From contig QNZW01000010.1 in NCBI GenBank assembly GCA_003978375.1, positions 1 through 12,718 on the forward strand: DNA of 12,718 bases. The letters are read 5' to 3'. This DNA is from Sulfurovum sp. Lineage in GTDB: Bacteria; Campylobacterota; Campylobacteria; Campylobacterales; Sulfurovaceae. Below are positions 9,421 to 12,658 of the stretch, in pieces (positions within the stretch are counted from its first letter, which is position 1; every line of letters starts with the position of its first letter). The position numbers and the translations under genes are program-made. The notes beneath the pieces are model-generated. The model ran no database searches, had not been told where the DNA came from, and worked only from the letters and a program-made list of their open reading frames with translations.

Positions 9421-9975
9421 ATGAAACTCAAAATACTTTTATGTTCAGCCTTCATAGCCCATAATGCCATGGCCGTAGAATCAAACACCACACAAGAGGG
9501 TGTTAAATATATTAAAATGTTAGGCAGCGCACTCAAAACAGAATTACAATCACATATGAAAAATGACCCTTCAGGACTTGAAGCATTGTCATTTTGTACA
9601 GGAAGTGCCCAAAGTATTACCCAAAAAATCAATGCAAAACTACCCAAATATGCCAAAGTACGCAGAACTGCACTCAAAGTACGCAATCATTCCAATAAAC
9701 CAGATGCTACAGATATAAAAGTAATACAGACCTATACCAAAGCTATTGCCTCTAAAACATTTCATGCTGATGATATAAAAACCATCATTGAGGGAAATAC
9801 TACACGTGTTTATAAACCATTACTTGCTCAAAAAGTATGTCTAAAATGTCATGGAAGTACACTCTCGCCACAAATTAAAAATGCACTACACAGTGCTTAT
9901 CCAAAAGATGAGGCAGTAGGGTACAAAGAGGGTGATTTGAGAGGTGTTATTGTTTCTGAGATAAAGAAACATTAA
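9421..9975 (+). CDS. periplasmic DUF3365 (Tll0287-like) c-type haem protein
   Basis: A 184-aa exported protein. A signal peptide covers about 1-18 (cleavage near NAMA-VES). The pattern FCTGSAQSI at 58-66 and RRTALKVRNHSNKPD at 81-95 is characteristic of the Tll0287-like/DUF3365 domain, and CLKCH at 140-144 is a single covalent haem site of the CxxCH type. The ending, with YKEGDLRGVIVSEI, is also typical. Such domains occur alone or as sensor modules; here there is no attached output domain, so a redox carrier or small-ligand-binding haem protein in the periplasm is the likely role. It needs the cytochrome c maturation system. The gene stands by itself, and its last 29 bases overlap the 3' end of the convergent DUF2238 gene. 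Confidence 0.85.
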   Translation: MKLKILLCSAFIAHNAMAVESNTTQEGVKYIKMLGSALKTELQSHMKNDPSGLEALSFCTGSAQSITQKINAKLPKYAKVRRTALKVRNHSNKPDATDIKVIQTYTKAIASKTFHADDIKTIIEGNTTRVYKPLLAQKVCLKCHGSTLSPQIKNALHSAYPKDEAVGYKEGDLRGVIVSEIKKH

Positions 9976-10567
9976 AATAACGTTTGAGTTGTTTGTCATG
10001 CAAACGACTCAAAGTCAACAATGCTGTGATACCACCAATAAGTGCAAACATCATATCTGACTGAGTATCCCAAACATATCCCTGTGTGCCTAAAAATGCT
10101 TCAGCATCATCACCTGTAGCTAAAGCCACCCACCATTCAACCAACTCATAAAAAGCAGAAAATCCTAATACGATACTTATTATAATATAGTCTAACCATG
10201 CTCTTGAAGCGGTAACAATATGTTTGCGTATTAAAATCTCTCTAGCTAAAATCGCTGGTTCAAACCCTTGCATAAAATGTCCAAGTTTATCATAATTGTT
10301 TCTACTTTGATGAAAAACATCCTTGATCCAATCAAAAAATGGTACTTCTGCATAGGTATAATGTCCTCCTATCATCAATATAATCATATGTATCAAGATA
10401 AGTATATACAGTAATGGCGTAAGTGGGAAGGTTTTATAGCTTATCACAATAATCACAAATCCAATGAGAGCAGGTATGACTTCTAAAAACCATGTAAATG
10501 TATCTTTGGGATTTATCCCAGACCAAATGAGTGCTATAAAAAAGATAGCCAACCATAGATATTTCAT
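9947..10567 (-). CDS. DUF2238 (YjdF-like) inner-membrane protein
   Basis: A 206-aa polytopic membrane protein with about five or six helices. Conserved polar motifs of the DUF2238 family are NNYDKLGHFMQGF at 90-102, FYELVEWW at 139-146 and WDTQSDMMFALIG at 166-178; E. coli YjdF (about 209 aa) has the same blocks. Biochemical function is unknown for the family. The conserved Asp, His and Glu in membrane-facing loops suggest an enzyme or a metal site. ATG 10567 overlaps the stop of the upstream methyltransferase gene by one base (TAATG on the minus strand), so the two are translationally coupled. Together with tetR upstream they look like a repressor-controlled set. The 3' end overlaps the convergent haem gene by 29 bases, leaving no room for a separate terminator. 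Confidence 0.88.
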   Translation of the reverse strand: MKYLWLAIFFIALIWSGINPKDTFTWFLEVIPALIGFVIIVISYKTFPLTPLLYILILIHMIILMIGGHYTYAEVPFFDWIKDVFHQSRNNYDKLGHFMQGFEPAILAREILIRKHIVTASRAWLDYIIISIVLGFSAFYELVEWWVALATGDDAEAFLGTQGYVWDTQSDMMFALIGGITALLTLSRLHDKQLKRYFNVSLSQKQ

Positions 10568-11175
10568 TATTTTACTCCTGTCATTAAAAATACACTAAAA
10601 TCTTGTTGTGGCTTAGAGATATGATTTGCCAATTCAAAATGAATATTTTTAAATCCAATTTCTTTAGCTATCTGCTCTAATGCATCTCTTTTAAATCCAT
10701 AATGATATACCCCAGTATTGTCACTATGAAAACTACCATCTTCACTATCAAGATCAGCAATGGCTATAAAACCATTGGTATCTAACATATCATAAAATTT
10801 TTGGAAGAGGGCTTTTATATCTTCTATATGATGCAACGTCATAGAAGAGATAATTCCATCAAACTTTCTATCTAAGGTTTGGGTACTTAAGTCCTTCTGT
10901 ATGATTTCTGTTTGCGAAGCAAATTCGCTCGATTTTTTTTCAAAGGCTTCTAACATAGAAGGTGAGTTATCCACTGCAACAATTTTTTGAACAAAAGGTG
11001 AAACAAAATAACTTAAAAGTCCTGTACCTGCACCAAAATCCATAATTTCCATTGTTTTAGACAAATATATATTTTTTACTATCAAATCAGCAATACCTTT
11101 GGCATTTTGTACACGTTTGGCATTCATATCCCACGATTTTGATTTATCTTCAAATAAATCTTTTTGCATATTCAT
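10567..11175 (-). CDS. class I SAM-dependent methyltransferase
   Basis: A 202-aa cytoplasmic methyltransferase of the UbiE/Methyltransf_11-like type. Motif I is IMDFGAGTGLLS at 44-55, the ribose-binding acidic residue is Asp69 in VAVDNSPSM, and the later motif FDGIISSMTLHHIEDI spans 105-120. Unlike the methyltransferase-like protein at 8370, its glycine loop is intact. GGAG is 5 bases before the ATG. The N-terminus (DLFEDKSKSWDMNAKRV) is the usual cap for small-molecule methyltransferases of this group. The substrate cannot be read from sequence. The gene lies between tetR (70-bp AT-rich gap, no terminator seen) and the DUF2238 gene (1-base overlap), so its role is probably tied to the TetR signal, perhaps modifying the inducer or a membrane compound. 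Confidence 0.88.
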   Translation of the reverse strand: MNMQKDLFEDKSKSWDMNAKRVQNAKGIADLIVKNIYLSKTMEIMDFGAGTGLLSYFVSPFVQKIVAVDNSPSMLEAFEKKSSEFASQTEIIQKDLSTQTLDRKFDGIISSMTLHHIEDIKALFQKFYDMLDTNGFIAIADLDSEDGSFHSDNTGVYHYGFKRDALEQIAKEIGFKNIHFELANHISKPQQDFSVFLMTGVK

Positions 11176-11245: not shown

Positions 11246-11899
11246 TTAAAATAAAGACTCTTGTTTTACTATTTTAATCATATCCCAAAACAAATCTACA
11301 TGTTTTTCAAACATTGAAACTACAGAAGAGGTTGATTTTTTATCTAATTTTAGTAAAGTCACCTGCATTTGATAAAAAAACAAAGGTGAAAAAAATTCAT
11401 TTGCCAATAATAAAGGATCAGAAGATTTAATCATCTCATTTTGCATCATACCAAAGAAGATTCCAGAGAGTTTTTTAACATTTTCTTGATAAAAATGTTC
11501 ATTATATATCTCACGTATACGCTCATTCCGAAATATCTCTTGCATAAGTAACCTATACAGTGCCTCATTTTGCCCGTCAAAGCTTAAAAGTTTAAAAGTA
11601 GTGGCAATACTCGACAAAAGGGCTTTTCCTTGTTTTTGAAGCTCCTGTGTATCTTTATTATCAAATAGTGTCACTATTGCTGAGGAGGTAAGATTGCTTA
11701 TAAGTGTCTCAAGTATCTCATCTTTGTTTTTAAAATGGTTATATAACGCACTTTGTTTGACTCCCATAACACCTGCTATATCCCTTACAGTTGTGGCTTT
11801 ATAGCCCTTAGTAGAGAAGAGCTTTAAGGCTACTTTGAGTATTTTTTCTTTGGTTTTGTTACCTTTAGAAGAGGGGGTTTTAACGCTCTGCTCGTTCAT
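11246..11899 (-). CDS. TetR/AcrR-family transcriptional repressor
   Basis: A 217-aa repressor. The N-terminal helix-turn-helix covers about 17-63: ATTVRDIAGVMGVKQSALYN then HFKNKDEIL is the family signature. Residues about 70-217 form the variable helical ligand-binding and dimer domain, so the inducer is unknown. The open frame reaches back to 11947, but ATG 11899 is chosen because AAGGAG at 11910-11905 sits 5 bases ahead. The longer form would start inside the operator and upstream of the transcription start implied by the promoter. The gene is very probably autorepressed, since a palindrome lies between its own -35 and -10. Likely targets are its own operon (methyltransferase and DUF2238 protein) and possibly the divergent gene at 12230. 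Confidence 0.93.
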   Translation of the reverse strand: MNEQSVKTPSSKGNKTKEKILKVALKLFSTKGYKATTVRDIAGVMGVKQSALYNHFKNKDEILETLISNLTSSAIVTLFDNKDTQELQKQGKALLSSIATTFKLLSFDGQNEALYRLLMQEIFRNERIREIYNEHFYQENVKKLSGIFFGMMQNEMIKSSDPLLLANEFFSPLFFYQMQVTLLKLDKKSTSSVVSMFEKHVDLFWDMIKIVKQESLF

Positions 11900-11918: not shown

Positions 11919-11947
11919 ATTATAATGAACATTTGTTCATTTGTCAA
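11919..11947 (-). promoter_or_regulatory. fully consensus sigma-70 promoter for tetR
   Basis: On the minus strand TTGACA (11947-11942), exactly 17 bp, then TATAAT (11924-11919). Both boxes are perfect matches, and predicted transcription starts near 11912, just before the AAGGAG. Such a strong promoter is exceptional in this AT-rich window, where -35 boxes are otherwise weak, and fits a promoter held down by a repressor. Confidence 0.9.
11924..11941. promoter_or_regulatory. TetR operator 1, inside the promoter spacer
   Basis: AATGAACA-tt-TGTTCATT, perfect 8-bp arms around 2 bp, centre 11932.5. It lies almost exactly between the -35 and -10 boxes, so bound repressor would exclude RNA polymerase. 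Confidence 0.88.
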
Positions 11948-11961
11948 GTATACATAATAAA

Positions 11962-11987
11962 ATTATATGAACATTTGTTCATATAAT
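11962..11987. promoter_or_regulatory. TetR operator 2
   Basis: ATTATATGAACA-tt-TGTTCATATAAT, perfect 12-bp arms, centre 11974.5, 42 bp from operator 1. The outer arms create TATAAT on both strands (11982-11987 on +, 11967-11962 on -), but neither has a good -35. Confidence 0.88.
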
Positions 11988-12009
11988 AAGAATTAGGTAA
12001 TTAATTAAG

Positions 12010-12023
12010 TGAACAAATGTTCT
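12010..12023. promoter_or_regulatory. TetR operator 3, imperfect
   Basis: TGAACA-aa-TGTTCT, arms matching over GAACA/TGTTC, centre 12016.5, 42 bp from operator 2. It is the weakest of the four by symmetry. Confidence 0.75.
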
Positions 12024-12047
12024 TTTTAATTGTGTGCATAGCTATTA

Positions 12048-12069
12048 CATATGAACAAGTGTTCATATG
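12048..12069. promoter_or_regulatory. TetR operator 4
   Basis: CATATGAACA-ag-TGTTCATATG, perfect 10-bp arms, centre 12058.5, 42 bp from operator 3 and 160 bp before the start of the 107-aa gene. The rest of the gap to that gene (12070-12229) is very AT-rich, with a CATAAT at 12193-12198 but no convincing promoter. Confidence 0.85.
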
Positions 12070-12624: not shown

Positions 12625-12658
12625 ATAGAATTTATATTATGTTAACCAAAGCTATTTC

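Follow-up and report, generated by a model that had tools for sequence, protein, structure and literature searches.

A locus in Sulfurovum sp. raises the question of why the gene for a TetR-family regulator should be preceded by four palindromes at a constant distance from one another, and of what function would keep such an arrangement where it lies on the chromosome. The locus is part of a stretch of 12,718 nucleotides, hereafter the window. We consider the most probable answer, at a probability of about 0.7, to be a cooperative autorepression array that presents its sites on one face of the DNA to a TetR-family regulator encoded beside dif at the chromosome terminus. From the sites, their spacing, their overlap with a promoter, their conservation, and their position at dif, all of which can be read in the DNA itself, we infer the encoded regulator as the binder, as well as autorepression and cooperativity.

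An earlier note on this DNA had described four palindromes with the core TGAACA-nn-TGTTCA at exact 42-bp steps. These palindromes are real. Their centers lie at 11932.5, 11974.5, 12016.5, and 12058.5, and all three center-to-center steps are 42 bp. Operator 1 (11926..11939) and operator 2 (11968..11981), both with the sequence TGAACATTTGTTCA, and operator 4 (12052..12065), with the sequence TGAACAAGTGTTCA, match exactly, whereas operator 3 (12010..12023), with the sequence TGAACAAATGTTCT, carries one mismatch; the palindromes are listed without strand. At one mismatch or fewer the window holds four sites, compared with a mean of 0.07 and a maximum of 2 in 300 first-order Markov shuffles. At three mismatches or fewer there is no enrichment (nine matches in the window against a chance mean of 10.7), and thus only near-perfect sites count. 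The exact motif does not occur outside the array in the organism’s own assembly, which is 79% complete, and a looser motif, WGAACRNNYGTTCW, identifies one extra site in this assembly, on a different contig. An Rfam scan of the window yielded no RNA above the gathering score.

The upstream regions of orthologous genes indicate whether the spacing is a peculiarity of this locus. The 80 loci listed include 64 with close TetR relatives, nearly all from Campylobacterota (L034 to L097), and these were compared together with the window as 65 rows. At least two sites with two or fewer mismatches are present in 61 of the 65 rows, and neither random spacing nor a solitary site, either of which would speak against a phased array, is the rule among orthologs. 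The exceptions are L064, which has 1 bp of upstream DNA and was dropped after the site comparison, L089 (one site in 63 bp of upstream DNA), L088 (one site), and L093, whose upstream region has no site at this threshold and one degenerate site. Four sites occur in 53 rows, comprising 49 arrays of the 42-bp type, the window included, and L094 to L097 at 32 to 33 bp. The other 12 rows have zero to three sites, and four of these rows (L064, L077, L084, and L089) hold no more than 165 bp of upstream DNA. Nearly all of the 147 gaps in the 49 arrays (143) are 42 bp (108 gaps) or 43 bp (35 gaps), with one gap each of 41, 32, 34, and 45 bp; the 34- and 45-bp gaps are off whole turns by 0.24 and 0.29 turn, respectively.

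This length is kept while the letters between the sites vary. When only spacers of exactly 28 bp are compared, the inner 16 bp between operators 4 and 3 (37 arrays) have an identity of 0.303 versus 0.301 after shuffling, and the inner 16 bp between operators 3 and 2 (43 arrays) are slightly above the shuffled value (0.343 versus 0.321). The spacer between operators 2 and 1 (28 arrays), which contains promoter sequence, reaches 0.422 versus 0.284. The letters of the two promoter-free spacers are random or nearly so while the length is maintained, and the spacing is therefore selected. A C-N8-GG element is found about 20 to 30 bp upstream of operator 4 in 39 of the 49 arrays, at the same exact offset in 32, and is missing in the window; its center is about 30 bp (three turns) from that of operator 4, and it is possibly the site of another protein.

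The same regularity emerges when the regulator is ignored. A protein-blind scan for two GAACANNTGTTC cores with centers 18 to 48 bp apart, performed on a drawn sample of 397 genomes of the class, returned 47 pairs in 30 genomes, with spacings of 20 bp (2 pairs), 22 bp (2), 32 bp (11), 33 bp (1), and 42 to 43 bp (31); a reversed control pattern gave no entry in the table. All 47 pairs fall on the 10 of 31 possible spacings that lie within 0.15 turn of whole turns, although the pairs share descent and the useful number is therefore that of a few family classes. Common descent likewise inflates phase coherence inside a lineage, and weight is therefore placed on the classes between families. The pooled phase calculation leaves aside L095 to L097 (32 to 33 bp) and loci of the Sulfurovaceae pool with fewer than four sites. 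At spacings of 49 to 79 bp, one of the 397 genomes gave a match, at 64 bp, with a degenerate site midway. Together, the 143 of 147 ortholog gaps at 42 to 43 bp and the 47 of 47 scan pairs in phase indicate that spacing and helical phase are selected, in agreement with what had been claimed from the window.

Pitch is characteristic of each group. It is 42 to 43 bp in Sulfurovaceae and 31 to 33 bp in Sulfurimonas, where G173 has five sites. Other genomes have pitches of 33 and 33 bp (G044 and G038), 32 and 32 bp (G192), 33, 31, and 22 bp (G039), or 22, 22, and 22 bp (G053, where one of the sites has three mismatches). Single arrays, too, show shifts of pitch by whole turns or nearly so, as in L066 (42, 32, and 42 bp), L083 (42, 34, and 42 bp), and G039. 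A tree of 56 proteins, in which several long branches leave placement unsure, assigns the 22- and 42-bp arrays to distinct parts of a single family and the 32- to 33-bp arrays to several others. By eye, three f8 genomes from another family (G352, G346, and G401; L127 to L129) carry a 20- to 22-bp pair with the same core that adjoins a different TetR-like ORF.

These pitches bear on how the bound proteins might cooperate. One dimer per palindrome would place four dimers on one face of the DNA. Judged by the size of a TetR dimer, neighboring dimers could touch at 22 bp, whereas at 42 bp (~140 Å at 3.4 Å per bp) contact would hardly be possible without bent DNA. Pitch differs by whole turns between families (22, 32, and 42 bp), which makes rigid contact between neighboring dimers unlikely, and the face is kept at 42 bp despite the distance, which makes bridging or in-phase bending more plausible than a fixed contact. 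The three upstream dimers, each whole turns away, would act in such a manner to produce a tighter and more switch-like complex.

The target of this putative complex is suggested by the promoter of the gene. On the minus strand, a conserved −35 hexamer (TTGACA, 11942..11947) and a conserved −10 hexamer (TATAAT, 11919..11924) are separated by a 17-bp spacer that contains operator 1. In 47 of the 49 arrays, the operator nearest the gene fills the 17-bp TTGACA/TATAAT spacer (at least 5 of 6 letters per box). This position of operator 1 points to autorepression of tetR, which we regard as very likely from the promoter sequence. A dimer seated between the −35 and −10 elements would block the strong tetR promoter, and the block would extend to the methyltransferase and DUF2238 genes where these follow tetR. 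Judged by eye, the Sulfurimonas promoter is covered by another of the array's sites, and a TetR that is 46% identical in G011, 0.1 kb from dif, has no operators. These two observations, together with the degenerate L093 and the 34- and 45-bp gaps, weaken the case for a one-face autorepression array. On the other side of the array, a divergent ORF of 107 aa (P0002, 12230..12553, plus strand) lies between the array and dif and matches no family above cut-off. Control of this ORF by a divergent promoter was rejected because the arrangement is not conserved; its cluster occurs in no other neighborhood compared, and therefore P0002 is probably outside the system.

The claim that a TetR-type gene adjoins the array is borne out by P0001 (217 aa, 11246..11899, minus strand), which matches PF00440, the N-terminal TetR_N DNA-binding domain, with an E-value of 9.4e-16 and 57.8 bits against a cut-off of 24. 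Its AlphaFold2 model is all-helical, with ten helices and a mean pLDDT of 87. A search with this fold gave 388 PDB matches at E ≤ 0.001, the best 50 of which are mostly labeled as TetR-family or transcriptional regulators, and the predicted fold is thus that of an ordinary TetR regulator. The DNA recognition region is kept among orthologs. P0001 is likely the binder of the palindromes, and binding of a dimer to each palindrome is predicted. A likeness of the core to the RutR site, which the earlier note had drawn, finds no counterpart in the protein, as P0001 reaches 21.9 and 18.8 bits with the NCBIfam RutR models, whose cut-offs are 368 and 230. P0001 was also rejected as a RefZ homolog (NF037937, 63.2 bits against a cut-off of 180) and as SlmA (PRK09480, 38.4 bits against a cut-off of 120), and neither is among the best 50 matches of the fold search. 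The RefZ model is the best NCBIfam match of P0001, L096, and L075 and is only third for L095, which indicates that this match is generic; the closest Bacillaceae relatives, L099 and L100, are also not RefZ.

The C-termini of Sulfurovaceae TetR proteins tend to the form Q/K-x-S/T-L-F, which in the window corresponds to the last five tetR codons (11249 to 11263). An LF ending is found in 49 of 62 complete loci, with Q (29) or K (13) as the first residue of the pentapeptide; QETLF is the C-terminus of 94 of 120 proteins, and the form is absent in L093 to L097. It resembles the bacterial beta-clamp pentapeptide, given as QL(S/D)LF in the consulted part of the literature (PMC9690074).

The position of the array on the chromosome, which the earlier note did not link to dif, became apparent from a dif core, TAGAATTTATATTATGTTAAC, at 12626..12646 (plus strand), upstream of the array and 0.56 kb from operator 4. 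It is one letter off the dif published for Sulfurovum NBC37-1, and the dif elements beside other arrays likewise match the XerCD-type dif published for Sulfurovum and Sulfurimonas (PMC2731167). For NBC37-1, dif is placed at 1,186,929 and the skew peak at 1,189,307 (PMC2731167); G024 has the published form at 1,186,916 to 1,186,936 and its array at 1,187,524 to 1,187,663. Sampled GC skew flips sign at dif, from 0.061 to −0.028 in G024 and from 0.009 to −0.102 in G051, and dif is present as a single copy in G003, G016, G024, G034, G035, and G051. By these sequence markers, the array appears to sit at the chromosome terminus, beside dif and, in the two genomes sampled for skew, at the GC-skew switch. 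The organism’s own assembly (G000) has two exact dif copies on different contigs (C12:16629-16649 and 12626 to 12646 of the window). Most other Sulfurovum genomes examined have one, and the second copy in G000 is possibly contamination or a mobile dif.

This linkage is widespread. In a set consisting of the own genome and 36 others of the genus, the TetR is encoded by 26 (E below 1e-50), and all 26 have dif (three or fewer mismatches). In 22 of these 26, no more than 2.1 kb separates dif from tetR, and the side on which dif lies and its orientation relative to tetR are constant; dif is 32 kb off in G034 and on a different contig in G007, G010, and G025. Twenty further array-bearing genomes (19 from the 18- to 48-bp scan and G419 from the wider-spacing scan) include 17 whose dif lies at most 2 kb from the array and keeps to that same side, as well as G353 (80 kb from dif), G419 (17 kb), and G428 (no dif match). 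Among the 49 orthologous arrays, 41 have dif 64 to 1872 bp upstream (4.5 kb searched), and of the eight others, six hold only 203 to 1034 bp, whereas L076 and L081 hold about 4.8 kb. Where the recombination system is of the other type, the order is the same: in G039, G053, and G192, difH is followed by the array and then by tetR, which is oriented away from them, and an XerH-like gene lies at the opposite end; L093 repeats this layout with a single degenerate site. The G039 recombinase matches Helicobacter pylori XerH with an E-value of 1.1e-107, and four ORFs beside difH have tyrosine-recombinase Pfam domains. In G058, G043, G045, and G048, difH is present without such a TetR within the 6 kb examined, and G038 has an array with no dif or difH match.

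Several explanations compete with, or could accompany, a one-face autorepression array; their odds belong to readings that are not mutually exclusive and do not sum to one. An equal pitch inside an array would be a natural outcome if a 42-bp unit had been duplicated in tandem and the spacing were merely left over from this, with no selection on it. This is very improbable, as the spacers are saturated or nearly so and yet keep their length, and pitch shifts by whole turns or nearly so even within the arrays of L066, L083, and G039. The earlier denial of a duplication is further upheld by Tandem Repeats Finder, which detects no tandem array, and by a spacer identity within arrays (0.323) that is like that between arrays (0.317). 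P0001 might instead be an ordinary ligand-responsive repressor of a small detoxification operon, a possible reading with the odds leaning against it. The predicted fold agrees with it, as does a class I SAM methyltransferase gene (cluster c1; 10567..11175, minus strand), which is found downstream of tetR and co-oriented with it at most Sulfurovum loci and whose cluster has 48 members in the 64 rows, usually after tetR; the top match of its product in an NCBIfam search, BioC, is far below cut-off. A DUF2238 membrane protein gene (cluster c2; 9947..10567, minus strand; PF09997, E-value 3.6e-58) occupies the third position of the likely operon at many Sulfurovum loci. Against this reading, neither gene was found in nine Sulfurimonas regions or in L052, L065, L086, and L088, where tetR remains. 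The gene after tetR is on the opposite strand in all nine Sulfurimonas regions, and these converging genes are read as putative 2-oxoacid oxidoreductase subunits.

That next gene on the other strand would also suit a terminus landmark. In this reading, the array with its bound TetR is itself the functional product; it would mark dif as a nucleoprotein structure and couple segregation of the terminus, resolution of dimers, or cell division, and autorepression would only set the dose. This reading is compatible with the autorepression array, and we advance it tentatively, the odds being some way against it. It accords with dif always being on the same side in the 22 of 26 and 17 of 20 genomes with close linkage, with the occurrence beside difH and xerH in G039, G053, G192, and L093, and with the lack of any regulon carrying the motif in the own assembly and in scans of array-bearing genomes for stray sites. 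RefZ and SlmA, TetR-family division regulators that work from fixed chromosomal sites, offer precedents (PMC6657595), but the likeness of P0001 to them does not exceed the general TetR level. Also against it are the arrays far from dif in G034, G353, and G419, those with dif on a different contig in G007, G010, and G025, and the four genomes with difH and no such TetR nearby. With similar reserve, the mark might take the form of a TetR-family protein on its phased array, in most cases with three to five sites, that is anchored next to dif or difH in Campylobacterales with helix face rather than distance constrained; it would link the last-replicated DNA to recombination, replisome, or division machinery and would have survived the exchange of dif/Xer systems. 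The main rival to any action at the terminus is inertia around dif, to which we give somewhat less than an even chance. Under inertia, xerH, difH, and tetR would have been ancestral neighbors, the convergence of polar sequences would have forced the new dif to arise where difH had been, and tetR would simply not have been moved. The loss of dif linkage in three genomes fits inertia, as do murA and an ORF of about 145 aa (named by eye), which are found close to difH in L093 and G058 and close to tetR in L094 and suggest that some of the neighborhood is inherited. The gene families within 8 kb of dif speak against inertia and for a landmark. In 18 dif regions (nine Sulfurovaceae and nine Sulfurimonas) chosen for having the array, there are 160 families, of which two span both groups: tetR (9 of 9 in each), whose presence is by construction, and one other, found in one genome each (G186 and G190). 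The near-absence of other group-spanning families is informative, because it implies that rearrangements right up to tetR occurred.

The stray sites behind the regulon search are few. In nine genomes, the control pattern gives hits in similar or larger numbers, apart from G051 and G039, and seven other genomes of the genus Sulfurimonas have 0 to 3 strays with a narrower motif. In a set of 29 strays, 26 are inside mechanical ORFs (at least 60 aa) and 3 are between them; strays outside this set include those of G035, G325, and G050 and two each of G192 and G053. A SlmA-like distribution of sites across the genome was rejected as a general rule because strays are few and mostly within ORFs. G051 and G039 have nine strays each, whereas the control matches number 1 and 0. 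In chromosome coordinates, all of these strays are distant from the array, and 16 of the 18 are inside ORFs. In Sulfurimonas L096 (4459-4806 and 4857-4955), an RNase P RNA gene is transcribed away from the array, and about 45 bp lie between the 5′ end of this gene and the outermost operator.

Autoregulated TetR-family repressors such as TetR and QacR have paired operators. The array resembles these systems in the TetR fold, in palindromes within the binder’s own promoter, and in a site between −35 and −10, but it differs from them in that it usually comprises three to five sites, keeps a whole-turn spacing from family to family, lacks any other identified target, and is located at dif. Plasmid centromeres such as the ParR/parC iterons double as operators and are likewise regular arrays that overlap the promoter of their binder; unlike them, the array described here is chromosomal and palindromic, with two- to four-turn spacing and no motor gene recognized alongside. 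Bacillus RefZ is also a TetR-family protein with palindromes whose chromosomal position is conserved across the genus; its five motifs are scattered (two per chromosome arm and a further one close to oriC), whereas here a single phased array lies at dif, and the sites of SlmA, a nucleoid occlusion factor that is also a TetR-family DNA-binding protein, avoid the terminus, whereas these sites cluster at dif (sections of PMC6657595). The neighboring dif and difH elements are exactly the dif/XerCD and difH/XerH types of Campylobacterota; in the consulted parts of the study that describes them, difH is not associated with specific elements or ORFs except its recombinase, and the term TetR is absent from the main text (PMC2731167). 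Among the matches listed in literature searches on multi-operator TetR spacing, dif in this group, TetR with difH/XerH, TetR in Sulfurovum or Sulfurimonas, and RefZ or SlmA at the terminus, neither the array nor its dif linkage is reported. A terminus factor in Campylobacter or Helicobacter was likewise not found among the matches listed, as judged by titles and abstract openings.

For the study of repressor complexes, the arrays constitute a natural series at two, three, and four helical turns, which would permit a direct test of whether the DNA face or the distance matters. For Campylobacterales, the regulator encoded beside them is a candidate for a protein tied to the chromosome terminus.
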